Below are positions 16,357 through 57,200 of a stretch of DNA of 64,000 nt, in pieces. The translations under genes were made by a program, and so were the position numbers. The DNA lies in contig OX387182.1 in assembly GCA_947561395.2 (NCBI GenBank), positions 50,367,283 through 50,431,282 of the forward strand, in the 5' to 3' direction. The stretch comes from Buxus sempervirens. Taxonomy: Eukaryota; Streptophyta; Magnoliopsida; Buxales; Buxaceae. The first letter of the stretch is position 1; every line of letters starts with the position of its first letter. Under the pieces are notes generated by a model. It did not search any database. It was given only the letters and a program-made list of their open reading frames with translations, and had not been told where the DNA came from.

Positions 16357-17160
16357 TCTATATATATTAAGCGAAGCGGGGATGGCTGCTTACGTGGCAG
16401 GCTTGAGCAGGTTCGGACTACGAACCTGCCGCAACTTTTGACTTTTTTCTTCGGTTTTTAAAAGTAATTTAGATTTAGTCATTTAATTTTTATAATAATT
16501 TTAAATCAGTATAAGCAAAAACAATTCTTTACTCCTTTCGGTTTTCAGTTTTCAAGTAATTTAGATTTAATCATTTAATAATAATAAAAAAAACCTGCTG
16601 CAACTTTTCGTTCTTCGGTTTTTTGAAAGTAATTTAGATTTAGTCATTTTATTTTTATAATAATTCCAAATCAGGTATAAGCAAAAACAATTCTTTACTC
16701 CTTCCAGTTTTCAGTTTTAAAGTAATTTAGATTTAGTCATTTAATAATTAAAAAAAAAGAAGAAACTCCGTTCTCCCGAAGAAGCTATTGTCGAGGGGGT
16801 TCGAGAACCCTCCTGAACCGTCCCTCTCTGCCTTCTCTCTCTATCAGATAGTCTCTATACTGCCGAGGGGGTTCAAGAACCCACCTAAATCGTCCCTCTC
16901 TGCCTTCTCTTTTTAACGGTCCCTCAGTCCTGTTCACCCTCCCATTCCCTCCCTCTCTCTTCTCTCTCCCATTGAAAACCCTAGAACCAAATCGATCCCC
17001 TCCCCTGCCCCCCTCTCTTTCCTCCCACTCTCATCTTCTCTCTCCCATTGACCCCTCCGGTTTTGGTTGCTCAACCTGATTCTTTGAAAACCCAAATCGT
17101 TGTCCCTCACAAAACCTCGGAGGATCAGCACATGAATGTGAACGGCTGTGGCCATACATT
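16357..17160 (+). mobile_element. Helitron 5' end with internal tandem repeats
   Basis: TCTATATATATTAAGCGAAG begins after an A, inside a LINE RT frame, and continues GCGGGGATGGCTGCTTACGT, closely matching the termini at 38173 and 53596. Two internal tandem pairs follow. The first has a period near 168 (16426-16758, with AAGTAATTTAGATTTAGTCA blocks). The second has a period near 72 (16789-16920, with CCGTCCCTCTCTGCCTTCTC blocks). The 3' terminus was not located, so the right boundary given is where recognisable internal sequence ends. Confidence 0.55.
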
Positions 17161-17624: not shown

Positions 17625-17815
17625 CTAGGGGAATGCACGCACTATGCACGTAGCAAAAGAATTAGAAACAAAGAACATCACATGGGCAGTTAGTTACTGA
17701 AACAGGTGGCTTAATAAACCTAGGTGTTGGAGTAAATTTGAAAAAATATGGAGGGCATTTTGGATATAGATGATCAGGTGGAAAACAGGGAGTTGGCTTT
17801 ATTTAATAGCATAGA
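17625..17815 (-). mobile_element. Complete 191-bp non-autonomous Helitron
   Basis: The minus strand starts TCTATGCTATTAAATAAAGC and ends GCTACGTGCATAGTGCGTGC, a hairpin, then a short spacer and CTAG. The flanks are A on the 5' side (17816 complement) and T on the 3' side (17624 complement), exactly the Helitron A/T insertion site with no duplication. There is no coding capacity. Confidence 0.75.
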
Positions 17816-37794: not shown

Positions 37795-38172
37795 AGTACT
37801 TATCTCCACAGTTCATTGAGTGTCTGTTTTAGTAATCAGAGGTGGGAAACAATGGCTATGTTTCTGCAAGGGGATTGTGATTTTTTTCCCTTTATTACAG
37901 GAGAGCAATCTCATACCTTCTTTGCTTGTATTGGTAATTTGAACACGCTATTTATACTATCATTAATGATTAACCCCTTTAAAGAAAATTACCCCTTAAA
38001 CACGTGTTTTGCTTGGTAATTAATGTCCTTTAGTTTCAATTCATATTTACTAGTGGAAGGGCACGCGCAATGGGCGTGTAAAGATGGGGAATATATGTAA
38101 ACTAATTAAAAACTACATTACAGCAATTTTAATGTTAAGTAAGTATTATATATATGAATCAAAATAATTATA

Positions 38173-38565
38173 TCTTATATATTAAGCAGTGCGGGGTGGC
38201 GGCTTACACGGCAGCCTTGCGTTGTTCCGAGGTTGATGTTTCACCGGGCGGAGAAATTAGATTTTGGTGATATTTTCTAAAATGTTTGTAAGGTATGCAT
38301 CTAATGTGCCAATTGAGAAATTTTAGTTTTCTTTGACTGACAACAAGTCTTTTTTTTTTTTGGTAGGGAACTGACAACAAGTCAACAACGCAATCCCCTA
38401 ACAACAACTTTTAATGAGCCGGCTGACAAATTTTAGTTTAAAAAAAGAGAAATTAGCTTTTAGTGATATTTTCTAAAATATTTCAGATTTAGTAAGGTAA
38501 TGCATTTAATGAGCAACCAGATTTAGTAAGGTAATGCATTTAATCGAGTGGTTCGGCCGGTCTTC
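38173..38565 (+). repeat. Inverted copy of the Helitron 5' region (left arm)
   Basis: Starts TCTTATATATTAAGCAGTGC and GGGGTGGCGGCTTAC, then GAAATTAGATTTTGGTGATA, TTTAATGAGCCGGC, and AGATTTAGTAAGGTAATGCA (twice). The same blocks appear in reverse complement at 53040-53596. Its start also has the A/TC context of a Helitron terminus, so it could alternatively be the 5' end of a second, plus-strand Helitron. Confidence 0.75.
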
Positions 38566-38882
38566 TAAGTTGTGAGTTTAATTTTGTGCAACAGGGTTTT
38601 GGGTTTTCTCCAGCGACTAAGGAAAGGCGATTTGGGTTTCTCGCCATGATGAACGGCTAAGCATTCCCAGCTGCCCTCCCTTGTCGATTTTCCGTGTTTG
38701 GAGACTGCTGCTTCCTGGCCTTCATCCGTGTTTCGTGTTTCTTCCCCATTCCTTACCTCTAAGTCCTTGGTTTTTTCCGCAACCCGTGTTTCCTTTGTTC
38801 GTCTCTCTGTTCTTTGGTTTCCGGTTTTCTGTTGTTGTCCCCTTTTTCTGTGTTCTGGTTTTCAGTCCCCCCTCTGCCAGCT

Positions 38883-41643
38883 ATGGAGGACCTTTCAGAA
38901 AGACTTAAGAACCTTATCATACCACCTCGCCCGTCTACTACCTTCTCCCCCCCTAATGATATGCTCTCTAGGCTGGAAAAAAATTGGAGCGCTCTCTTGA
39001 TTTGTGTCACCACCGGTACCCAAGTTCACATTAATTCCATGAAGAACCTCTGCAACAGAGTGTGGAAACCTATCAAAGACATTACCACTACCTAGATATC
39101 CGAGCAAAGGTACCTTTTCAAATTCCAGTCAAAGTTCGACAGATCGAGAATCATGGAGGCTCAGCCGTGGACAATAAACGGCCACCTGATGAGATTCATC
39201 GAGATCGATAAGGAAGAAGAGATCTTCATAGCTCAACCGGAGGAAATCACAGTCTGGATGCAAGTTCACAACATCCCTCTGCGATTTAAGGAGAAGAACA
39301 TCATAGAACAGATGGTGAAGAATATGGGAAAGGTTTGGGAGATAGATTGCAACTGTGACTCCATGGCAAGTATACCTTCTGTTCGTATCTCTCTCCCCAT
39401 CAATAACCCCATCTCGGCTGGTATGTTTCTTAAAGTTGAAAAGGATAAAAAAGTGTGGATTGATTTTAGATACGAGTATCTCCCAAAAATTTGTTTTTCC
39501 TGTGGATTATTAAACCATGAATTGGTTGATTGTTCTAATCCTTTTCTCTCTGAAGATCAATCCAGATTCGATGTTTCTTTAGGCAGGTGTTTACACCCTA
39601 TATAACCGACGAATAAGAGAAGGACACGTGGTGCCTAGGTGGCTTAGTTAGGCCACGACATCAGGACACGTAGGCTTTGAATGGTTGAGCAGGCCACGTC
39701 AGTACGCATACAGAAGAATGCGGTTCGAGCCACGTAAGCCAATACAACAAAACCACAAATATCAGAAGATCGTGCCATCGGCCGTTCAAGAATAAAACTA
39801 TTTTAAGATCATGGCCGGGTGGTTATCATTCTGAAACAGAGAACTGAAGATGACCAGCCGCCATGAAGATCGTGCAAGAGTAGGACGTTGAGCAACCGTC
39901 AAGGATAGGCTATAAAAGGCACCAATTCGAAGAGCTCGAGGACACAATCCACACAACCGCAACCGGTTATTATATTATTTTGATCATCCGTGATCCTTTA
40001 TCCCCTCTAATACAGACGGATAAACTAGGACTTCTCTCACTGCTTCCAGTCGCAATGACATCTTCGACCCCTCTTTACTCCGACTAACACCAGAATCCTG
40101 CCACCGGAGAGTAAGTTGAGGCCGCCCCTGACTCGCAGTTCTGTCCTTACAGAATCCCGAGCAGCCGGTCCCAAGACTCGCTCTGTTCACGCCAGGTGAT
40201 TCGTGTATTTTCGGGTAAGCAGCAATCCAAGGTGAACCCCCTGAATTGGCTTTGCTAGCAGCCGCCCCCTTCCTCCTGCGCTTATACCCGATTACGGCTA
40301 TAAGACCAGGACAGGCCGGTCCTGCGAGCCCTGTCAGTTTCTTTTTTACTTTTGTTTCCCTTTTGAGGATTATCTGTTGTCGCTTTCGGCTATTCGGCCG
40401 ATTTAATAATAAAGGATTTGTGTGCAATTAGTTGCTTTCGCTTTCGAACACTTACAAGAACCCAAAACGAAGACCGAACCCCTAGTCTTCATACCATCGC
40501 TTGACCGATTTTATTACAGGTGACTTTCAGTACGACTGAACCGATCCCTGTTCAGATTCGGAACAGGTGCTCCGGGTCAGGAATCGACTCGAAAATCATT
40601 GTATGAAACGATACTGGCACACCCGCGTAGAGACACATCACCATCTTCGACACGTGTCCACACCGGCCCATTTTTGGAGCAACAGCAGGCTCTATAGCTC
40701 GGATATCCATATCACTCCCCTCAAGAGGAAGAACCCCCTGTTCAAGCCTATGTTGAAGTCTCCCCAGAACCTTCCGAGTTCGGGTAGCTAGTTGCCTAGG
40801 ACCGTATTGTCTCAGATGAGCCTCCCCTTGCATGAGTGAGCCCAACGGTCGGATGCTTCCTCGAGCCCTCCCCCTTTGTCGACGTCCTTTCATCCTATGA
40901 GCCCCGACGCCTCGTGCGGTGTGCCCTCCTTTACGTGTGAGATCAATACTGATAATATTTGGGTTGATTTGATCCGTAACCGTCACCCGGCCCGTGTTGA
41001 GACCCAACATACTTATATCTTAAAACGTGATAAGCCCAGTTCCGTACCCAATCCTCTAGGCTGCGTTGAAACCCAACCCACTTTGTTTCTTAACCACACC
41101 ACTCAAGCCCAACCCACACTCGTTCTAAACAAATCCACCCAAGCCAATTCTCAGAAAACCAAAAACCAAGTCCAGATGTTCACCTTCGGTTCCCAACCCT
41201 CCTTTAGCCCACCTATTCGGCCTAAATCCCCCCACCTAACCCTCAGTTTGATATCAGAAAAAATGGCCATAGATCCTCCTATCTTCCCCTATAACAGAGT
41301 CAATCCCCCCCGACCCCCCTCTTCCCAGGGGCCGGCCATCTCCATGTTTGTTGGTCAAGGTAATAGCAGCAAGTCTCCTCGGAAAAAAGGTAAAGAGAGG
41401 TTAGCCTACCCTCATAATAAGAAGATAAAATCCATTTCCTCTGGTATTGTCATTTGCAGTGACCTCCAGTCTTCTAATTTGGCCTCTCCCTCAAAGAAAG
41501 TTTGTGGGACCAATCCGGAGTGTTTTTCGGGTCTCCCGAATCCCCGCTGCATTCATGAATATTTTAGCATGGAATTGTCGAGGGATTGGACAACCCTTGA
41601 CAAAACAATATTTAAGATTTCTGATCAGAAATCTCAAGCCTAA
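38883..41643 (+). pseudogene. LINE ORF1 (DUF4283 and CCHC zinc knuckle), broken
   Basis: The start is MEDLSERLKNLIIPP. A DUF4283-type region follows (RYLFKFQSKFDRSR, EAQPWTINGHLM), then a zinc knuckle CFSCGLLNHELVDC (CX2CX4HX4C) near 39499. A TAG at 39093 interrupts the frame. A 1097-bp LTR sits after SLGR at 39587 and the frame resumes at 40690 (LYSSDIHITPLK). Further stops occur near 40789 and 40834, then an open Pro/Ser/Lys-rich tail runs to 41643 and overlaps the ORF2 start in another frame. Its normal role is nucleic-acid binding in the LINE particle. Confidence 0.8.
39588..40684 (+). mobile_element. Solo LTR, 1097 bp, in LINE ORF1
   Basis: It begins TGTTTACACCC and ends GGAGCAACA, with the 5-base duplication GCAGG on both sides (39583-39587 and 40685-40689). 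A promoter-like GCTATAAAAGGCACC near 39908 and AATAATAAAGG near 40406 fit a transcribed LTR. Joining across it restores the LINE ORF1 reading. No internal domains remain, so it is a product of LTR-LTR recombination. GC content is higher than in the neighbourhood. Confidence 0.85.
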
Positions 41644-44600
41644 TTTGGTCCTTTTGTCTGAAACCATGGCATCAGATTTAAACTCTGAAAAAAACATTAG
41701 AAAATTTGGTTTCAAAAAATTTTTTTGGTCAGCTGCTAGAGGTCTCTCAGGAGGCTTCTGGATTTTGTGGGACACTAATCTGTCTCTTGAGATTATTTTT
41801 CAGGACTCATGGCTCATCCACATGGTGATAAATCAAGGCAAGGAAAGTGAAGCTAGCATCTCCTTCATCCATGCTCATCACACGACAAGGATACAGAGAC
41901 AACAATGGATGCAATTAAGGGAAATTGCAGAAGATCAGAGTAAGCCGTGGACTCTTCTAGGTGATTTCAATGTTGTCATGGACCCGAATGAAAAGCAAGG
42001 AGGTAAGTCTTTCAAATACCAACAGGCTAAACTTCTTCATGACCTCTTATCTGATTGTCAAATGATGGAACCGTGTCCTAAGGGTTTGAAATTTACTTGG
42101 GATAATGGTAGGCAGGGACAAGGTAGAATTAAGGAAAAACTTGATAGAACTTACTGCAATTCTGAATGGATTCTTAAATTTCCTAATACTGCTATCTCCC
42201 AAGAACCTATCCTTGGTTCTGATCATAGCCCGACCCTGATTAGAACCAATCCCATTAGAGCTAACAAGCAAAAACCCTTTAGGTTTGAATTTTTCTGGAT
42301 GGAGGAACTTGATTGCGAGATGATCATTGAAAAAGAATGGAACTTAGGTAATGATCAAATGTGGTCTCTAAATGATAAACTAGAAGGTTTAGGCAGAAAA
42401 TTGAAACAATGGAACAAGGATAACATAGGCAACCTACACACAAAGGCCTTAAAACTTTTTGATGAGCTTAAAACTATCCAATCTCAACTGGAAAATAGGC
42501 AAGATAATATTCTCAATCACAAAGAAAAACTCATCAGAAGAGAGTATTTCCATGTGCTTCACCAACAGGAGATTTTGTGAGCTCAAAAATCCAGAATAAA
42601 TTGGCTTAGGGAGGGGGACCTTAATACTAAATTCTTTCATGTTTCCACCCTTAATAGAAGACAAAGAAATAAAATCTCCTATGTCAAAGATAGCAACAAT
42701 GAGATATTCACTGAATAGGAAGACATAGAAAAATGCTTTAAAGATCACTTTACCTGCATGTTTCAAGAGAACTCTTTCCCTAGGGACACTTAGAGTCATG
42801 TTCAATGGTTCACTAAAATTGATGAAGTTGATAACAGAAGTCTGCTTTTCCCTGTCTCTAATGAGGAGATATTTAAAACTGTTAAAGCCATGGGAGCTAG
42901 GAAATGTCCAGGGCCTGATGGCTACCAGGGTCTTTTTTATCAAAGATATTGGGATACTGTTGGGCCAAAAATCTGCTGTTTAGTTAAAGAATTCTTCAGG
43001 TTTGGGATTCTTGATACCGGGATGAATCATACTTTCATAGCTCTTGTCCCTAAAGTGGACCACCCTATTAGACCTAGTGATTTTCGTCCTATTAGTCTTT
43101 GTAACTTTAGTTACAAGATCATCTCTAGAATCATGGTCAATAGAATGCGTCCCCTAATGAACAAAATCATCTCCCCAAATCAAAGTGCCTTCCTTGCTAG
43201 GAGATCCATTCATGATAACATCATTCTTGCCCAAGAAGTGATGCATCATATAAGGGGTAAAAAGAAGGGGAAATCAGGGGGTTTTGCTCTCAAGGTTTAC
43301 CTCTCAAAAGCCTATGATAGGCTGAGGTGTGATCTTATTCAAAAATCTCTTGTTGATGCTGGTTTTGGTCACCACTGGACCTATTTGATTATGAAGTGTG
43401 TTACCTCTGTTACCTACTCCATCCTTGTGAATGGTACTCCCTCGGGTTGCATTGTGCCTAGTAGGGGTATTAGACAAGATGATCCCCTCTCTCCTTACCT
43501 GTTCATTCTAACCCAACAAGTCCTATCAAATCTTCTTCATGAAGCTGAGCTCAACAACAGATACCATGGGATCAAAATCTGCAGAACCAGCCCTCACCTT
43601 TCCCATCTAATGTTTGCTGATGACTTGCTTTTATTCGGTAAAGCTAATCTTAGGGAAAGTAAGCAAATGATCAACATCATCCATCACTTTTGTAAGTTAT
43701 CTGGGCATGAAATCAATGTGAATAAGACTAAATTACTGATCAGTCCTTGTGGGAAAGGCAGAGATAGGGGAAACCTAAGTAGAATTTTCGGCATCAAGTT
43801 CAAGACAAAATTCCAAAAATACTTAGGTATCCCCCTGACTAATGATAGAATAAACAATGATTTATTCTCTGAGATAACTGCAAGAATAAGTAAAAGATTG
43901 GCCACCTAGAAAGCAAACCTTTTCACCCAAGCTGGTAGACTCACCCTCATAAATTCTGTGGTGATGGGCATGCCTATCCACCTCATGTCTTGTTTTATCC
44001 TCCCTTGCAAAACCTCTGATTTTATTGAAAAAGAATCCAGAACTTTCCTTTGGGCTAAGCCCAAGAAGGAAAGAACTCTCCATACTATAAATTGGGATAG
44101 AATCTGTCTCCCCAAATCTGCTGGTGGTTTAAATGTTAAAAAAATCAGAGAGTTTAACTTGGCTTTGTTGGCTAAAAAGGGTGGGATCTCATCCTTAATA
44201 ATGATATTTGGTGGACTTCCTTCTTCAAGGCCAAATATCTGGGGGATAAATCTTTCTGTGAATCTATAGCAAAACCCTCATACTCCCAAATCTAGAAACA
44301 CCTCATCAAAACAAAAGATCTCATAGCCAAAGGTAAAGGTTGGAACCTGGCTAACGGGGAATCTATTGCTATAAAGGATACTAGTTGGATTTCCAGTACA
44401 AACACCCATATCATGCGACCGGATCTCTCCCTGATGGAAAATATCACTACTGTTGCTGACCTCCTCAATCCCCAGACAAAACAGTGGGATATTAGCATTC
44501 TTTCCAAGCTGTGAAACTAGGATATTGTGAACATGATCAAAGCTGTCCATATCAGTTGTTGCAAGCCCAAGGACTACCCTATCTGGAAAGTTGGTAAGTG

Positions 44601-45633
44601 TGGTCAATTTTCAGTATCATCTGCTTACAGTTTACTAACCAACAGTGATGAACAGGTTACTAACAGCTTTTGGAAGGTTATTTGGAAACTCTACTGTCCC
44701 CAAAAGATCAGATTCTTCATTTGGAAGAGTATGCAGGAAGGACTTACTACAAGTGAGCTCCTCCACCATAGGTTGAGAACCCAGTTGCATGATTGTGTCC
44801 TTTGCAACGGAGTGCCTGAAACAGCAATACATTTGTTTACTGAGTGCCCATTCACCCGTGCCCTTTGGTTTGCTGCCATGGGGGGTCACCTGGACCACCA
44901 TGATCATCAAGCCAGCGTTAAAGAGTGGTGGTTCCAATGTATCAAGAAGTATGGAAGGGATAATCTCTCGATCACTGCCTGGGCAAACATGTTTTGGACA
45001 GTTTGGAGAACAAGAAACCAGGTAATTTTTGAAGGAATCAAACCAAATTTACATCTAACTATCTCCCAATTACTTCTTCTCCAGGAGGAATCAGCTCAAC
45101 TTCTTCAAAAGACCACAAATACCAGGAGCAAAGAGGAGATAGCCGTGGCTTGGACTAGACCAAAAGGCAACAACTTCAAGGTCAACGTTGATGGAGCAGC
45201 AAGGGGAAATCCAGGGAGAGCAGGTTTTGGAGTTATAATCAGAGGTCCACAGGGTGAATTCAATGCTGCGATGGCTCACTATTTGGGTACATCCTTAGCA
45301 TTGGTTGTTGAAGCTTTCGGGCTGGTCGAAGGTGTCAAGTTAGCACAAGCAAGAATGTTGAAGAATGTTGAATTTGAAAGTGATTCCTCAGGAATTGTGG
45401 GCTTCATGAACAAAGGGAGCAGTGTAATTCCAGCGTCGGTTCAAAACATCATTGAAGAAGTAAAGATCAGATGCAGTGTTTTCCAGTCAGTTTCATTTCG
45501 TCACATATTTACGGAAGCAAACTTTGCTGCTGATGCCTTGGCAAAGTTTGCATTGGATGACCACCCATGTCTGTGGGTTAACTTCCCCCCCTCCCCCCCC
45601 CCCCTCTTTCTTATCCCCTTTTCTAAGTGCTGA
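41555..45633 (+). pseudogene. LINE ORF2: endonuclease, RT, zf-RVT, RNase H; inactivated
   Basis: MNILAWNCRG opens the AP-endonuclease, with LLSETM, GDFNVV and GSDHSP catalytic motifs intact. RT starts around 42860 (KCPGPDGYQGLFYQ, FRPISLCN, FADDLLLF). The DLSKAYDR aspartate is Tyr (TAC at 43298) and QGDPLSP reads QDDPLSP. In-frame stops lie at 42578, 42716, 42791 and 43907; a one-base loss near 44180 shifts frame, with three more stops by 44520. The last part (44527-45633) has zf-RVT (CVLCNGVPETAIHLFTEC) and RNase H with VDGAARGNPGRAGFG, the ESDS aspartate and AADALAKFAL. Enzymes for nicking and target-primed reverse transcription are thus recognisable but dead. Confidence 0.9.
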
Positions 45634-45710
45634 TTTCTTAGGGGCCACTCATGTTCGTTCTGTATTATCTTAAGTCCCCCATGTTGTATGTTTTCATTAC
45701 CAAAAAAAAA

Positions 45711-45891
45711 GAGTTTGAACGATTTTAATGCGCCGTTATCTTTGACTGTTTCTAGGTTTGGTTGCCATGTGGAGCACTCTTCTAAAGAAACTCTTATCCT
45801 TCACCAACTCTGTTACGAAGCAATCAACTTTCTTCGAATTTTTTTTTCTTTAATCAACAAATGCATTTAATGCGTCGGTTTATTTGACTGC
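45711..45891 (+). repeat. Inner inverted repeat, left arm, first part
   Basis: GAGTTTGAACGATTTTAATG, TTTGACTGTTTCTAGGTTTG and CACCAACTCTGTTACGAAGC match the reverse complement of 50100-50248 at roughly nine bases in ten. The arm itself holds a direct repeat: the AATGCGCC-GGTTTATTTGACTG-TTCTGGGTTTGG unit occurs twice, the second copy interrupted by the solo LTR at 45892. Confidence 0.8.
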
Positions 45892-48800
45892 TGTAAGCAC
45901 CTCATTTTTGCGTCTCCCAAAATGTAGAAAATGAAATTTTAATTGAAAAGTCAAACTTGAGAAAAGTCAAACTTGAGAAAGTCAAAAAGTTGACTTTTTA
46001 TCTGGTGCAAATCAGTTGCCATGCTTCCCACCATTGGAAAGAGGATTCCGATACGATTCTAATGGAACAGAGTTTGCTCAAATCGGAGTCCAGATGAAGA
46101 AGTTATGGACTGGTCAAATCTGAGAAAAGCATAAATTGATTTTCTGCTAAACCCCAGATCAGCTACCTCATTTGATACCAGCAGAAAGAGCATCTCGACA
46201 CGATTCCAACGCAACTGAGTTTGCTGGAATCGGAGTCCCGGATAAGGAAATATGAGCAAAACCGGCTCCCGGACGCAGCCTGGCACTTCTGCTAAAAAAC
46301 TCGAATTCGCTGCTAAATTGAAATTCAGTGGATTGGGAATCTCGAACTGATTCCAACGCCACTAAGTTTGCTAAAATCAGATATCAGATGAGTGAGTTGT
46401 GGGCAGTTGAAGTTTCTGAAAAAATTGCACACGTGGCAAATAGTGAAGAAAGAGCAGCAAAATGAAAAGTCTTGCATTAAAAAATAATCTAATTAAAGCA
46501 TTTGAAATAAAAGAAAAAGAAAGAATTAAAAGATGCATGTGCATCCAAAACTTAACACAAAAAATCCTAATATAATAATAATAAAAGTATATAAAGAAAA
46601 AAAAGAAAATAAAAAAACATGTGGTTGGATGAATTCTCCATGTGGAGAATTCGTCCAAGCCTTCCCCAAGCAAGACTTAGCCTCCAAGTTTACTTGGAGG
46701 CTAAGTCTTGAAGCAATGATGCATAATCATTGCTTATATTTAAAAAAAGGCACAAATGAAAAGTGGGTAAAGTTTTGGTGATAAAGCAAGAAATAAATTA
46801 ACTTTTGGTCATTGCTTATAAAAAGAAAAAACCCTAGCAAAAGGGAGGGAGGGGGGGGGGGGGGGGGGACGGCTCATTTTTTGGAGGTCTCCCATCTCTC
46901 CCAAGCTTCTCCATTCTCTCTCCCACTCTCCTCCATCTCTTCTTGCCCCCCTTTGGCTCCCCCAAACCATAAAACATCACCCTAAGGCCAATCTCTTCTC
47001 CTTTTCTTGTCTTCCTCTTCATCTTTCACCAAAACCAAGGAGGAGGACTTGTTGTTGGTGGCCAAAGAAGGTGCTCCAGCACCTTAGCTTGCCCCAGGGA
47101 GACTTCACACCCACTCCACAAGGGTTCAGAACCCAAGGTAATGTTCACTGTAACCTTTTGTTCAACATAGTTTAAAATGAGCAAGTTTGAGGGTTTTTAA
47201 ACTAACCAGTGTGTGTGTGATGTTCAAAGTATGTTCTTGCCTTGTTTTGCTCCCCTCCTTCTCCATTTGTGGCCACATGAAGTAGCTTAACCTCCATGGT
47301 AAGAGGAGGACCATTCGTACGGTTTTAAGGGAGGGAGATGGTTCCTTTCAAGCATGTTTTGCTACGGTGTTTAGAACATCATACTGTTACCAACTTGTCT
47401 CATTCGCACGGGGGAGCATGTTCCCCCACGTTTGCCTCTCATGTATCCCGTCATAAGCCCCCCTCTCATCTCTTCTTTCCTTGATTCTTTAGTTCCCATG
47501 TGGAGTTGATTTTAATATGCTTTCGTAGTCTCAAAAGCATGCATGCACGCCCACCTTCACACACCCACAAGTGCTATGCTAGATCATTATATATGTTTGA
47601 GCCATTAGCCATCTCATGGCATGCATGGGCACACACACGTGCCTTTCATTTTTTATGCTCACAAGACACCAAAAGGCATGCATGTTCTCCACGGTTCAAG
47701 AGCATGTAGATTGAGTTTAGCTTATTATCTTCCCTTTATCTCAGCAGTTTGCTGTCATATGAAATTATAAGAACGAAACAGGGACACATAGGTCCCTGCT
47801 CCGCCACTGGGAGTGTCCCAAAAATGGGAGGAGGCAACACCTTGAGCCTCCTCCCCCTTGCTTGAACCACTAAAACCCCAAAAAAGGTGACCAAAGGGAG
47901 GTCTTCCTCCCACCTGAACCACTGTGGGCTCACACAGGAGCCCACACGATCACTGGAACATCCTAGAAAGCCTAAAAACCCAACCCCAATGCAAAAATAA
48001 AAAAAAGGGCTTCTGGGGGTTGATCCGGCAACTCAGGCCGGATCAACTGAAGCCCATGTGTAGCCGGCTAAAGATGCGGGATACACAGAGACTTATGTGT
48101 AACCGGCATCTCAGGCCGGCTACACTGCCAGAATTCTTTTTTTGCCATTTTTGCTGATCTTGTGTGATTTTTGGTTTGTTTGATCAAATCCGGGGGAACC
48201 AGTAGGCCCGGAAACCCAAGATGGGCCATGGACCGACCCGGTCCAAATTGATTTCCGGTGGGCCTTCCAACGGGGCCCACCAACCGGAAACCCAAGATGG
48301 GCCATGGACCGACCCGGTCCAAATTGATTTCTGGTGGGCTTTCCAACGGGGCCCACCAAGCCCGACCAATTTATTTTTGCTTAACTAAGATAAATAAAAG
48401 ATTTGAGTGGGCCAGACCACTTGAGGCCCACCCAAGCCCTAGTTGGGCCATGCATGCTTAAAGTAGGATGTGGTTTGGCCGAGACCACGGGCAGGGCCTA
48501 TCGGGCCCACTAAGCCCATGAACCCAACCAACTTAGGGTTTCAGAACCCTAAACTCAGGAAGTCTTGGGCTTTCAAGCCCAAGCCCAGGTAAAGGGCCCC
48601 AAGCCCAAAGCCTGGCCCATTTTGGCAAAGATTAATCAAAATAAACTCAAAACACTTGGCAACCAGGCCGAGGCCCACTCAGGGGCCCGCAAGTCAATCC
48701 AGACTCACTTTTTGCATGGAACTAAATTTAATCTTCAACTTGGAATTTAAATAAAATCAATTCACTGAACCAAAGCCCAAAGGGCCTCTCAGGCTAGACT

Positions 48801-49254
48801 GAGGCCCACCAAGGGACACGTGGGCTCAACCAAGCCCACCAAGGAATCCGCGGGCCTTCCAACGGGGCCCGCCCAATCAGACTCACATCACTTTAACTAA
48901 AAAGATAAAATCAAGTAAAGGGACCCACACCACTTTGGCGGTCCCGCCAGACTTAACCAAAATTGAATGCTGGATTAGGAATCGGGTGAGTGAGAGACCA
49001 ACTGAGTTGACTCAAACCAGGGAAACTTATGGGACCCGTCACTTGACGGGGTGGACTGGGGTATCTACGGACTTCCCCAGACCGCAACCGAGAACCTACT
49101 CAGAATCTCAAGCCGCAGACCAAGCCTTAGTAGAAGAACTTAGGCACCCAGGTGTCTGCCTGCACCCCATCAGGCAGTGGCGACTCCAAACAAACCCCGA
49201 GGCACGCATCGTTTTGCGTGCGCCTCGTCGTGCGACCAAAATCGGGTGCGCACA
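45892..49254 (+). mobile_element. Solo LTR, 3363 bp, TGTAAGCACC family
   Basis: It starts TGTAAGCACC and ends GGGTGCGCACA, imperfect inverted ends. Flanking bases ACTGC (45887-45891) and ACTAC (49255-49259) are a 5-base duplication with one change. The opposite arm at about 50071-50080 keeps the uninserted site (GACTGCCTCTT in reverse complement). Early on, three copies of a unit with CGATTCTAATGGAACAGAGT or CGATTCCAACGCAACTGAGT lie at 46030-46400, and a 76-base tandem pair at 48208-48360 (GATGGGCCATGGACCGACCC). An 18-base G run lies at 46851-46868. No retrotransposon domain is present; open frames inside are incidental. Confidence 0.85.
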
Positions 49255-49259
49255 ACTAC

Positions 49260-49345
49260 CTCTCTTCTGGGTTTGGTCAATCTTATGAAGAAACTCTTCT
49301 CCTTCCCCAACAGTCTTCTGAAGCAAGCAATTTTCTTCCGAAACA
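49260..49345 (+). repeat. Inner inverted repeat, left arm, second part
   Basis: Continues the arm after the solo LTR: CTCTCTTCTGGGTTTGGTCA, CTTCCCCAACAGTCTTCTGA, AGCAAGCAATTTTCT. It matches the reverse complement of 50010-50075. Similarity ends just after this point. Confidence 0.8.
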
Positions 49346-50009
49346 AGTTTCTTCCGTTTTTTCCTTCACTTCTTAATCAAGTTTATTTTAGGGCTCACCT
49401 TCTTCGCCTCTACCTCTCTTCTTCTCTAAACTCACTTGTAATCGAGGGAGACAGTGATCTGGTGCGGCAGCGGAGAATTGGTGCGGCAGTTGAAAAGGAG
49501 ACACTCGAACATCGTCATTGAAATTGAAAAGCGTGGTGGATATGGAGGCTTCGGTAGTGGAGAACTAGTGTGGCAGACGCTCAAACATTGCCATTTCATG
49601 CGGTCCAGCATTCAGAAGGTAGACCCTCACCGAGCATTCAAGAAGGGATTAGAAAATCTGGGATGAGAGAGAAGAGAGAAGAGGAGAGCAGGGAGAGGAG
49701 ATTCATAGATGCTACGTGGCTTGGTAGAGAGTTGTGGGGAACGGAGATTTGAAGAAGCTTCTCGGCGTCGTGCTAGTGCAAGAATGGTTGAGAAGAGGAG
49801 GGGTTGGGAGCCTTCTTGACCTTTCTTCACAATAGAAGAGAGCTTCTCCAGAAAGCAACGAAAAGCGCCACGTATTGGAGAAGGAAGTTTCTCCAGAAAA
49901 CTTTCTTTGATATCAAATGGGAAGAGAAGTTCGTGCACCCCAAACCTCCTGAACCTACCACATCAGTCCCAGAGCAACGCGAACCTGCCGCGTAAGCTGC
50001 CACTCCCTT
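49346..50009. other. Centre of the palindromic Helitron
   Basis: Unique sequence between the arms. Purine-rich and mixed open frames are present but none has recognisable protein features. Its right edge (about 49955-50009), read in reverse complement as GGGAGTGGCAGCTTACGCGG and CAGGTTCGCG, resembles the Helitron 5' region at 16370 and 38187, so a third inverted or direct copy of the terminal region may lie here. Confidence 0.45.
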
Positions 50010-50289
50010 TAGAAAATTGCTTGCTTCAGAAGACAGTTAGGGAAGGCAAAGAGTTGACCAAACCCAGAAAAGAGGCAGTCAAATAAACCGGCGCATTTTG
50101 TTGATTAAAGAAAACAAAATTTGAAGAAAGTTGATTGCTTCATAATAGAGTTGGTGAAGGGTAAGAGTTTATTCAGGAGAGTGCTCGACGTGGCAACCAA
50201 ACCCAGAAACAGTCAAAGAAACTGGCGCATTAAAATCGTTCAAACTCGTTGCTTATTAAAGAAAAAAAATAAAATTGGCCGAACCATTC
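50010..50289 (-). repeat. Inner inverted repeat, right arm
   Basis: Reverse complement of the left inner arm. It retains the uninserted target of the 3.4-kb LTR and, at its outer end, GAATGGTTCGGCC, matching GTGGTTCGGCC at 38548 in the left arm. That shared sequence shows where both LINE insertions fell relative to the ancestral palindrome. Confidence 0.8.
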
Positions 50290-52975
50290 TTTTTTTTTTT
50301 GGTGGGAAAAGAAACATATATTAAGACCTGAGAAAGGAAATGTTCTGGGCATCAGCCCGAAGTAACAAGGAAATAAAAGCAGGGGGAGATCTAATCCAAG
50401 TACACGAAAAGTTATCAATGGCGAAGTTGGCCAAGAGATCGGCCACTTGATTGCCTTCCCGACATCTATGAGTGAAAACAACAGCTTGAAACTCTCTGCA
50501 AATCATCTTTATCTCTGTAAGGGTAGCCAAAATACGCCATGGAAAGGTTACATTTCATCTGGACAGCAGTTGGATAATGGTGAGGGAATCTCCTTCCAGG
50601 ATCACATGAGTAGCACCAAGCGCCCTGCCCGGCCATCTTAATACTTTCAAGTGCACTCAACGCCTCTGATTGAAGTGCTGAATCAGCTTGAACTATTGGA
50701 GAGAATCCGGCCAAGAACCTACCCAATTGGTCACGACATACACCCCCAATAGCCGATTTGCACACAGTCCTTCTCCAAGCACCATCGAAATTGATTTTTA
50801 CAAAAGGAGAAGCCAGCGCTTGCCATTGGATCAGACGTGGAGTTCTGTGATTTTCAGTAGCAACAGATGTATTTTTGATTAGCTCTATCTCCTCATGCCA
50901 ACGTCTAAATGCACTGTACGCTTGCTCCACACTAGGAACCAGCCCCTTAAACATAACCTCATTCCGAGTTTTCCAAATTGTCCATCCTACAGCTGCCACC
51001 TCTGCAAGAAAATTAGAAAGTGCAGGTCAAAGGGGAATGTTTGTATTGTGGCAAAATGATTTAACCATTCGAAGAAAGATTGTTGAGGGCCCCTACTCTG
51101 TGCATAGCCACCAATAGATCTGAACCAAACCGCTTTGGAAAATGGCATTGTAACCATAGATGTTCCAAGGTTTCCGAGTCTTCCCTACAGAGATAACAAT
51201 TAGTAGCCATCCGTCCAATTCTTGAATTCAGCAATGCGCCTGTAGGGAGACCACCATTTAGGCACTTCCATAGGAAGATTTTAATTTGGCTAGGGCATTT
51301 GAGATGCCATAGCTTTAGCCAAAGGGGATTGGATGGAGGCAAACTATCTGCAATCATCATTCTGTATGCTGAAGCTACAGAAAACTTACCGCTTGAAGTG
51401 CCTTGCCACTGTCGAGTGTCTCTCAATAAGAATGGACAAACTTGAGTAGCTATAATCTTGCTCACGGTCTCTTCATGCCAGAATTTATTCAAAATGCTTA
51501 GATTCCAAGACTGGGTAGATGGCTGTAGCAATTGATCAACGGTTGCAAGGGTGAAGGAGTTCTGATTCTGATGAATAGTAAGAGGCTGTGTAATGCCTTG
51601 GGCCCATTCTTTTTTTTTAAGATTAAGAAAAAGCTGAGCTAGGCTCTATCTTCATTAGATGAAAACAGTGTTACAATAGCTGCTACTTTAAGCCTGAATA
51701 CAACGATAATATACCCAAAAAAGCGAAGGAACAAAAGAGGCCAGGATACAGGAGAGACATCAACCCCAACAATCTGGATGCAGTTCTGAGTGAAAGTGTC
51801 CGACCCTGCGCCGAAGTAGCATGAAACCACCTGAAGAACAGGGGTAAGGTCGGACGAAGGGTCCGTTGAAACACGGATTGAAATTCCCATTAACGGGAGA
51901 GAAGGCTTCGACAAAGACGAAAAAGCCAGAAAAGGATTGCTCGATAAACCGAGACACATCCGAACCCAGAACTGCACTTGGACAATGAGGGTCGAGTCCC
52001 TCTGGTACCTAACAACACAAAAACTAACTAAAAACAACAAAATAAAACTGATTTCACTATAAACAAAAACAAACCAAAACACCATAAAATTGGCTTCACG
52101 GGCAGGGAGTTGCTGCGGCAAAATCCTCGACGCCCCAGGTCCTGACGAACCATTAAGGCTTAAAACTATGCAAACCTCCCCGTCTTCTTCCCCATCAGGG
52201 TCCTCTGCTTCATCCTCCGATTCCGAAGCCATACTTGAAGGATACAAAACGACGACCACCAGACTTGACTAACTGATGCCTAGATGACAAGAATAGCCGC
52301 CAAGCAATAGAACCTGTCGCAGATGCCTATGACTTTCTTCTTCTGAAAACTGAAAAGTAACAAGCTCTTCCGAGCGCTTTAATGGAAATAAAAGCGATTC
52401 CCCCAAAACCTAGTTGACCTGCTGAGAAGAACAAAGGGAGAGCAAAGATCGATCACACCTGGAGAACAAGACTTAGAAACGAAGTAACCCTCCCTAACCT
52501 CTGTCGTAGATTCTTTGCTTGGAAAGAATGAAAATCGAAAGAAGGAAGAAGGTTGCCTCCGATTACCAAACACTTAGAGGCACCACAGGAACCGAACCGC
52601 TCCCCAACCAGAACTCTCTCGAGGGTCTAGGGTTTCAAGGGCTCAATCGCCAAACTCAAAACCAAACCCAAACCCTAACGAAATCACCAAACTCACTTGC
52701 CAAACCCTAACCCTATGCGTTGCTTGCTTGGCCATTTACAAGATTCGATTCTTGAAGGTTCAATAAAAGGACTCCAGAAATTAATACAAGTAAACATAGA
52801 TGCTACTAGCCAGTCCAGATTTACAGACTTTGAGAACTAGAAAGATACAGTTCTAACATGACCCACCTGCTAAACATTTGCTGGATCTTGTCCATGAATT
52901 GATCAGGTAGAAAATTGGCAAAACAAAGCCGCCTTGGGCCCATTCGAAACCTCCAAAAACTAGTTGTTGATTAAA
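50290..52975 (-). pseudogene. 5'-truncated LINE (zf-RVT and RNase H) in the right arm
   Basis: A T run at 50290-50300 is the A tail of a minus-strand L1. RNase H (INFDGAWRRTV, SEALSALESIKMA, then after a frameshift near 50620 CREGNQVADLLANFAIDN) lies at 50321-50999. The zf-RVT domain (WQGTSSGKFSVASAYRMM, CYLCREDSETLEHLWLQC) lies at 51061-51531. The rest of the 5' part is absent; about 30 bases more follow beyond the retroposon at 51610-52930, then the Helitron arm resumes near 52975. Its protein sequence is clearly different from the LINE of the left arm, so the two were independent insertions. Confidence 0.8.
51610..52930 (-). mobile_element. Non-autonomous L1-type retroposon with 15-bp TSD
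   Basis: GCCTTGGGCCCATTC flanks it exactly at 51595-51609 and 52931-52945. The minus strand ends with AGCTCAGCTTTTTCTTAATC and an A tail. A 206-codon frame (51639-52259) starts near an acidic stretch (MASESEDEAEDPDGEEDGE) and turns hydrophobic, like the frame of the element at 35509-36350; neither has LINE domains. The 5' half contains AACCCTA-type repeats (GTTAGGGTTTGG). It is inserted in the truncated LINE of the right arm. Confidence 0.85.
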
Positions 52976-53039
52976 TGCATACCTTACTAAATCTAGAATA
53001 TTTTAGAAAATATCACTAAAATCTAATTTCCCTCTTTTT

Positions 53040-53596
53040 TTAAACTAAAATTTGTCGGTCGGCTCATTAAATGCTATTGTGAGTCAAACAAAAATAAAAT
53101 TTAAAGAAAACTAAAATTTCTCATTAAATGCATACATCACTAAATCTGAAATATTTTAGAAATTATCACTAAAATCTAATTTTTCCTTTTTTTAATTCAC
53201 TTAACGCCCAACCACCCGAAGTGACACATTAGCTCTCATTAAATCCATACCTTACTAAATCTGAAATATGTTAGAAAATATCACTAAAAGCTAATTTCTT
53301 TTTTCTTTTCGTAGAATAATTTCTTTTTTTTTTAATTAAAATTTGTTGACCGGCTCATTAAATGCTGTTGTGAATCAAATCAAAGAAAAATAAAATTTAA
53401 AGAAAAGTAAAATTTGTCACTAAATGCATACCTTACTAAATCTTAAATATTATAGAAAATATCACCAAAATCTAATTTTTTCCTTTTTTTTAAAGTCAAA
53501 AGCAAGTCGCCAAACCACCAAACGTGAAACATCAGCCCGGAAGTAACGTGGGGCTGCCACCTAAGCCGCCACCCCTGCGCCGCTTAATATATAAGA
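53040..53596 (-). repeat. Helitron 5' region (right arm)
   Basis: On the minus strand it begins TCTTATATATTAAGCGGCGC, then GGTGGCGGCTTAGGTGGCAG. The unit ATTAGATTTTGGTGATATTT, AGATTTAGTAAGGTATGCAT, AATGAGCCGGTC recurs two to three times with a period of about 160-190 bases. The left-arm copy at 38173 has fewer units. It is the proposed true 5' terminus of the composite Helitron. Confidence 0.7.
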
Positions 53597-53654
53597 TTTG
53601 TAACATAATAATTCAAACCAGATAGCTCAATGGAATGTCACCTCTCTTTCACTC

Positions 53655-54410
53655 AATAGTAGGGATGCTTATCGAGGCGTGCCCGGGCCGACCCAGCACG
53701 GCATGCGCACTGTAGCGTGCCGTGCCTGGCCGGGGGTCCTGGGGCCGTGGCCTGTTTGGGCACGGCCCGCCAAGGCACGTGGCCCGGCGGGCCGCGCGCA
53801 TGCGTGCCAGCCGGCCCACTATGGGGCATGCCCAACTTTGTTGATTGGGTTTGAAAAGGAAATGAAAACTGCCGACAGTAGGGTTCAAACTTAGCTCAAC
53901 AGCTTTCAAGTCTGTCTCCTTAACTACTAGGACACATCAACTTCTTGCATCAATAGTATCATAATTAAATTATTTTAGCTAAAAATTAAGGATACCCCCA
54001 CCATTGTTCGAAAATATAACTATAGAAGCTCTTATATAATCAATCAAAGCTAAGAAAATAATTAGGTATAAATAAGCCCAAAAAGTTGTTATAAAATCTC
54101 TAATTAAATATATTTGTTAAGTCCATGGTTTTAAATTAGACTACTTTAAGTCTTTAATGGGTGTAATTTATATTTTTTTTTTTGAGCAAAATCTATCTCA
54201 ATATGTGTAAGACAATTTTGTGAATAATAAAAATATTTTTCAGAAATTTTTTTTGATTTTTTTGGATTTTAAAAAAAAAATTACTTTTAATACCCCTGAC
54301 CTGCCAGGCCCGGCATGGCACGCCTGCTGGGGCATGCCGTGCCAAGCCTAGGGGCCTGACTAAACGGGCCTTGCGTGCCGTGGCCCGCCTGGCACGTTGC
54401 GTTTCTCATT
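53655..54410. mobile_element. GC-rich hAT-like element (GGCACG termini)
   Basis: GC-rich flanks rich in GGCACGG, GCCCGGC and GGCATGCC (53660-53850 and 54295-54405) bracket a very AT-rich interior. The left flank starts after AGTAGGGATGCTTATCG. This layout of subterminal GGCACG repeats around an AT-rich core matches a widespread plant MITE group. Overlapping open frames in both strands of the left flank are composition artefacts. Confidence 0.5.
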
Positions 54411-55790
54411 ATCAAAGATGTGAGTGCTGAATCATTATGTTTATGCTGATAACCTTTTAAGTACCATGTAAAAAAATCGTTGTAATCGATCTTTATGCTG
54501 TTCGTGAGATAACAATATTGTTATGTGTAATGTAAAAAGCTTTAGTCAATGATAGGCCTTTTGATCTACTCAAAAGCTGGTGAACAAAGTGATGGAGCCT
54601 AAGCAGATTGTGGCCAAGATGATGGATCGAATTGCCTTTCCACGTGATGATTTTCATTCTGATGAATAAGGAGATCATGCTGGCTATGATATGTACGGTG
54701 AGTCTGCCTTTCGTTTCATTGATATAAGACTTTATCGTTGATAACTTGATATGGTATGGGTTAGCGTATTATTGTAGATAATAGATATTGTATGGGTTCT
54801 GTATTTATGGCTTCAGCAATATTAGACATATGATCCTTTTTAGGCCAAGAGTATAGTCAACTCAATCCTTAAAGATGCAAGTTCAATCTTCCTCATTATT
54901 CTCATTTTTCCTTTTTTTTTCCTCACATCTCATTTCATAATTTTTTTCATGATAAAGAAGCAACCTAATTTAGATAATGAAGTTGAGATAAAAATATAGA
55001 AATAAATAACAGGAAAGGTAATAAAAATAATACATGTCTAAAGTATTTTAAATGGAAAATAAAATATGAATTTTAAATTGCTATACAGAAATTCACCATG
55101 GATTAATTTCGTCATTGAAAGATGGTTAAATCAAATATAACAATATAGAAGTTAAGAGAAAAACTTATCTGTAATTAGGATTAGTGTGGCTTTTTCATTA
55201 GTTGTTGTGCGCTGAATGAATGGATAAAGGAACATTAATGGAGGATGGATAACTAGAATGAAATATAAAGAGAAAAAAAACGTGAATGGTGGGAAGAAAA
55301 TGTGAAATTAGGAAATAAAGACAAAACTTGTGTTTGTGAGTGAGAAGATAAGGATGTTGGTTTAAGTTGGAGGGAAAAGATATCTTGAAAGTAGAAGAGA
55401 AGTAGACGGTTCGTTTTTAAAATTGGGGAGAGGATAGAGTTAACGGTTGTAGGGGAACGTGGAGATATATTGCTTGATCTTCTGGGATTTGCAGTGGTAT
55501 TTTTGGATTTGTTGAGGGTATTTGTGGGAAAAAAAGGGGGTCAGAATCAAAGAATATTCTCATCTCTTTTCTTTACAATTCATCTTTATTGTTGTTTGTG
55601 TTTGTACTGCATTCTGTCTCTGCCTCTCTCAAACTTTTGGTTCCCTTGCAGTTGCAAGTATTTAATTCACTGCATTGAAATGATCAATAGAAAAAACTGT
55701 GGATGCATCTGACACTAAAAATTACACAACAGATTCCCAAATGGGCATTTGAAGTATGATGGTATTCCTGTTTCAGGTGAACAAAGAGAT
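54411..55790. other. Intergenic sequence, one possible exon-like stretch
   Basis: Mostly AT-rich. At 54570-54655 the plus strand reads NKVMEPKQIVAKMMDRIAFP and RDDFHSDE before a stop, which looks protein-like but was not recognised. The remainder shows nothing definite. Confidence 0.3.
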
Positions 55791-57034: not shown

Positions 57035-57200
57035 GCTTTTAATAGTAGCATAGATATAGATGTAGGAGTAGGATAATAAATTTTTTTATTTTATTTTGTC
57101 TTTATCTTATATCTTTTGGTTTTTGCTTCCAAGAGCAAAACAAATCCTAATGAAAAAAATTTATATATACCCGTGCTAAGCACAGGTTTTAAAATAGCAT
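57035..57200. mobile_element. Helitron-like ends, partner ends not found
   Basis: On the minus strand at 57054, TCTATGCTACTATTAAAAGC after an A looks like a Helitron 5' end (compare 17815). On the plus strand at 57170-57198, ACCCGTGCTAAGCACAGGT is a hairpin followed by TTTAAAATAG, resembling a decayed CTAG terminus. They face away from a common element and are probably two different copies. Confidence 0.35.

Follow-up and report, generated by a model that had tools for sequence, protein, structure and literature searches.

Facing 5' ends of one Helitron family inside a second Helitron of Buxus sempervirens, a probable remnant of separate insertions

In a 64,000-nucleotide stretch of the 676.5-Mb Buxus sempervirens assembly (C1:50367283-50431282, here the window), two 5' ends of one Helitron family, which we call X, face each other from positions 38173 and 53596, and the block between them is embedded in a further Helitron, Z. 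A first-pass annotation of the window had described this block as a single foldback Helitron with two 5' ends. We consider it probable that the block instead goes back to separate X insertions that faced each other within nested Helitrons and lost their 3' halves, the apparent foldback being what remains of them. For the most part, the window holds ordinary nesting, a decayed pile of transposons inserted into one another. Genome searches were run against the same assembly; they pass over common words and score the best candidates alone, so that our counts of other copies are lower bounds. Loci of this genome that were fetched for comparison carry the numbers L024 to L074.

Both outer ends belong to family X. 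The 15 bases TCTTATATATTAAGC, which the annotation had correctly read at each end in opposite orientation, have exact matches at 38173 (+) and 53596 (-), with an A in front of both (A/TC). A profile of the X 5' end, built from 17 ends including three from the window, scored these two at E 2e-18 and E 1e-19 and the third, at about 16357-16361 (+), at E 3e-13. A fourth window end, at 50008 (-), was outside the profile set and lacks the first 19 profile positions. Genome-wide, two pattern searches at up to 3 mismatches returned 157 (78 + 79) and 119 (65 + 54) matches, against 0 in reversed-pattern controls.

Relatives indicate what the 3' end of the family looks like. Hairpins of the GCCCGTGC type mark X 3' ends in L056, L057 and L059; in L059 the end reads GCCCGTGCATCGCACGGGCTGTATGCTAG followed by T, with the hairpin downstream of a 5' end, and L057 is alike. 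From their order and distance (3.0 and 2.7 kb), the 5' and 3' ends in L059 and L057 appear to belong to the same element. Between the window arms no hairpin of this type was matched at up to 5 mismatches, and the one match with 6 lies inside a long terminal repeat (LTR)-like insert. A looser scan of the same interval gave hairpins before CTGG, CTGA and CTAA, and none before CTAG followed by T. The two window ends are thus facing 5' ends with no recognisable family 3' end between them, as the annotation had it.

The ends could in principle be alike by chance, or belong to a cut-and-paste transposon, since two TC ends in inverted orientation resemble terminal inverted repeats; so do those of L072 (C1:15939748/15941797), a facing X pair with only 74 bases in common at its ends. 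Against this stand the pattern matches with their empty controls, the hairpin and CTAG before T downstream of the 5' ends in L057 and L059, and the presence of only three facing pairs within 10 kb among 157 listed ends. Neither the window block nor L072 nor L071, a palindromic locus described below, showed a target duplication at its ends, and we regard this explanation as extremely improbable.

The hairpin and CTAG that had been taken for the block's own 3' end do lie 120 bases outside the left X 5' end, at 38050 (-), and they are the 3' end of Z, not of the X arms, since Z stands on both sides of the block and relatives of its tail lack an inverted X 5' end. The 123-base tail has relatives at C14:28875380-28875513 (88%), with an adjoining partial unit, at C1:5584223-5584361 (73%) and at C15:23462502-23462628 (72%). 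CTAG followed by T closes it in the window and in 3/3 other places, with different flanks. With a long query, the matches to the C14 units and to C1 end at 38171-38173; the C15 tail was matched only by a query ending at 38180, and read letter by letter it has no X end at this place. In the second C14 unit AATTATA is followed by TACAAATG and in the window by TCTTATATATTAAGC, which gives the uninterrupted A/T site of the left X copy. By comparison with this one unit, the left X copy entered between A and T and duplicated no target bases. Z is resumed on the right of the block, in the same order as in C14:28871627-28875012, where this sequence precedes the same tail; between 38172 and 54870 about 370 bases of Z are absent.

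These observations bear directly on the proposal of a single Helitron that starts at 53596, ends at 38050 and carries its own 5' region a second time, inverted, immediately before a true 3' end. Its polarity and A/T flanks would fit, and new 3' ends can arise in Helitrons by read-through (PMC4778049). Yet the 3' end goes with Z in three other places, none of which has the inverted X end, Z comes back beyond 53596, and the uninterrupted Z site contradicts the proposal, so that we hold it to be very unlikely. At the level of the family the 3' partner is a different one, as the X 3' ends in the relatives indicate, and a different partner is what the annotation had itself named as a refutation. 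The pairing of the ends is corrected here; mistakes of this kind are easily made where Helitrons are nested.

For the 5' TC end of Z, no candidate was common to the window and L052, L053 and L069, and none was found upstream on C14; a candidate at 57054 (-) was dropped, as three Z relatives are without a like end. A first hairpin scan for 3' ends was noisy, the hairpin at 38050 being too weak for its threshold.

Read in inverted order with the inserts left out, the X arms are identical at 467/545 aligned bases. Their divergence is uneven, with 246/300 identical in the outer and 221/245 in the inner arms (54/300 against 24/245 differences, Fisher p 0.007; p 0.04 without the first 80 bases). Over those first 80 bases the left arm is 85% identical to L049 and 84% to L050, against 77.5% to the right arm. 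Outside the TC ends, the window flanks match at 9/30 bases. Minus its inserts the block sums to about 2.4 kb from the boundaries read, in line with the 2-2.5 kb first estimated.

We propose the following history. The family membership of the ends, the A/T site of the left X copy, the presence of Z on either side and the lack of a close match to the X 3' end between the arms are observed; the separate insertions, the deletion and their order are inferred. Z, on the minus strand with its CTAG at 38050, received an X copy in its tail, between A and T at 38173 and pointing rightward. Another X, which points leftward from 53596, and a third, shortened X piece (50008) would have come to lie against the first. 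The 3' halves of the facing copies are lost and about 370 bases of Z are missing, a pattern expected from a deletion between the two, and the arms would later have been filled by two long interspersed nuclear elements (LINEs), an LTR-like element and an additional poly-A element.

Separate insertions are favoured for several reasons. The right flank, 53597-53663, is not Z and had no match elsewhere in the genome, and the two 5' ends therefore appear to stand in different target DNA. A third X piece lies in the loop, the left arm begins with 80 bases that resemble L049 and L050 more than they do the right arm, and the arms are unevenly diverged. Close X pairs also occur elsewhere, since by profile the fetched loci hold tandem pairs in L059, L061 and L064 and divergent pairs in L056 and L066.

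Other observations weigh against this history. The inner arms are 90% identical to each other, compared with 85% and 82% to their nearest relative, L049, and four-point sums of identities (our own arithmetic) put both arms together as a pair; trees of the arms, with supports of 45, 64, 71 and 80, leave the grouping undecided, as do quartet counts. Only one of four Z tail units, on C14, has T after A at the left site, and a search with the right flank found no uninterrupted site for the right X end. Non-Z DNA may have sat in Z at this place before X arrived. Lastly, a one-piece X foldback does exist, in L071.

In L071 (C1:26501602-26503047), two X 5' ends bound a clean palindrome of 1.45 kb, the cleaner object to which the window points. 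Its arms are identical at 554/622 aligned bases (89%), and the symmetry stops at both TC ends, where the outer flanks match at 10/30 bases; the right flank reads CTAGA, not T. A piece resembling C9:35552287-35552428 is present in both arms, at 82% and 80%. With the arms themselves at 89%, this suggests that the fragment was captured before the inverted duplication.

The window block could likewise be one foldback X Helitron, bounded by two 5' ends and itself lacking a 3' end, that arose by inverted duplication and was inserted into Z as a unit. L071 demonstrates such a form, with its fragment in both arms, and the 90% identity of the window's inner arms is in keeping with it. Z is not resumed at 53597, however, so that a single unit would need to have inserted precisely at the border of a rearrangement, and the third X piece in the loop and the uneven divergence of the arms are also against it. 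L071, moreover, was found once, with no second copy among the best 40 of 128 candidates scored, so there is no sign that a foldback X transposes. Searches with the window arms scored the best 40 of 75, 33 of 33 and the best 40 of 119 candidates, and neither these scored matches nor the 20 fetched loci hold a copy with both window arms inverted, such as the annotation had envisaged; among the fetched loci, only short opposite-strand pieces occur, in L055, L060 and L067. On balance we see an insertion of a ready-made foldback as a possible but rather doubtful origin. The annotation's idea of a foldback Helitron with two 5' ends thus finds an instance in L071, while for the window block we favour separate insertions.

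A tentative proposal, to which we give less than even credence, is that fold-back of the displaced strand, copied as far as its first base, lets X give palindromes that have a 5' end on both sides and lack a 3' end, L071 being the clean example and L072 and the window block older ones. For example, a displaced single strand might break, fold back and be copied to the very 5' base. That fold-back copying may proceed to the 5' end is our own suggestion, taken from no paper; searches for "foldback helitron" and like exact phrases found no paper in a body of literature without most subscription journals. If true, a foldback X would preserve, in the genome of a plant, a legible mark of the single-stranded Helitron intermediate. 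Should other genomes also hold palindromes whose symmetry stops at both 5' termini, these would have a bearing on the way in which that intermediate is copied in plants.

The spacing of X ends was surveyed in a census of 200 rows (100 of the 157 and 100 of the 119 matches) listing 157 distinct X 5' ends. Pairs within 10 kb among these comprised 3 facing, 3 same-strand (all in one cluster) and 0 divergent. These counts speak for foldback units, with one of the three facing pairs being part of a larger inverted duplication. The census leaves out the window pair itself, whose left end departs from the pattern at more than 3 positions, and in the fetched loci the profile caught divergent and tandem pairs that the patterns had missed. 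A simulation of 100 uniformly placed ends gave 0.007 expected facing pairs within 2.1 kb, with two or more in 0/20000 runs; it was not used as a test because it ignores the clustering of X ends. The facing pair C1:46732363/46737755 was discarded as a foldback, its 97.7% inverted identity extending past the 5' ends. The locus concerned (L073/L074, C1:46732310-46737820) is an inverted duplication with an X 5' end inside, either a recent segmental event or an assembly artefact.

Such nesting has precedents. Canonical Helitrons run from TC to a hairpin and CTAG and insert between A and T (PMC5876387); X and Z share these ends and this target, whereas a 3' terminus could be recognised in neither of the window's facing X copies. 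Helraiser depends crucially on its left end but does not strictly need the right one (PMC5876387, PMC4778049). X 5' ends directly follow a 3' end of the X type in L059, L061 and L049 (the last with TTAG), resembling the head-to-tail Helitron arrays described in PMC5876387. Composites of maize helA are proposed to have acquired several termini from Helitrons nested near or inside others (PMC3288121), as in the window, where, unlike in helA, the 5' ends face on opposite strands and the family 3' end is missing. FoHeli composites of Fusarium oxysporum are likewise proposed to consist of a Helitron inside a Helitron in opposite orientation, with inner termini later lost (PMC5148889); FoHeli belongs to a Helitron2-like fungal group and the arrangement was put forward for the reversal of an open reading frame, whereas the window holds a non-coding palindrome in a further Helitron.

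The features of the block and its surroundings are collected in Table 1. As annotated, each arm received a different LINE near the same inner sequence; the insertion points are about 30 bases apart in arm coordinates, next to GGTTCGGCC. An attraction of insertions by the palindrome need not be invoked, because the spot is T/A-rich and other X copies, L049 and L050/L051, are broken by inserts at different positions. The left LINE encodes the Pfam domains DUF4283, zf-CCHC_4, Exo_endo_phos, RVT_1, zf-RVT and RVT_3. Its first open frame stops at 39605 and LINE-like sequence seems to be back some 1.1 kb on, so the interval at about 39600-40700 is a possible additional insert.

Table 1. Features of the X block and the adjoining Z sequence, in window coordinates
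Feature	Position	Strand	Evidence
Z 3' tail: hairpin and CTAG, then T	38050..38172	-	relatives on C14, C1 and C15
Left X copy: 5' end TC and outer arm	38173..38582	+	exact end; profile E 2e-18; A/T site in Z
L1-type LINE, left arm	38583..45710	+	duplication GAGTTTAAT / GAGTTTGAA
Left X inner arm, first part	45711..45891	+	inverted match to 50097-50274
LTR-like insert (TG..CA), left arm	45892..49254	.	5-base duplication ACTGC/ACTAC; like end pieces in L050/L051
Left X inner arm, second part	49255..49360	+	87% to L049 over 106 bases; 49255-49336 inverted match to 50011-50079
Probable captured piece	49389..49688	.	90% to C21:6147925-6148225; partly in X copies L024, L028, L066
Third X 5' region, in loop	49940..50008	-	profile positions 20-88, E 6e-13
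Right X inner arm	50011..50289	-	221/245 aligned bases as in left inner arm
5'-truncated L1-type LINE, right arm	50290..52939	-	Pfam zf-RVT; GAATGG duplication
Poly-A element nested in right LINE	51610-52930		15-base duplication GAATGGGCCCAAGGC
Right X outer arm, internal repeat at ~290-base spacing, 5' TC at 53596	52946..53596	-	profile and exact end
DNA right of X block	53597..54869		53597-53663, abundant repeat, then C22-cluster fragment
Z body resumed right of X block	54870..55576	-	88%, 100% and 92% blocks collinear with C14, upstream of same Z tail

Three further observations concern the surroundings and the family. The abundant repeat that adjoins the right X end, at 53684-54400, drew 1670 first-look candidates. 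In L066 (C8:16358933-16359320), two X 5' ends, separated by about 130 bases, point away from each other and are followed by similar pieces, an arrangement that is the mirror image of the window's. Downstream of the X end at about 16357-16361, the window holds a complete 191-base Helitron, from 17815 to 17625 (-), which begins with TCTATGCTATTAAA after A and ends in CCCCTAG before T; the 3' end at 17625 was accordingly set aside as a partner of that X end, as it belongs to this separate element.
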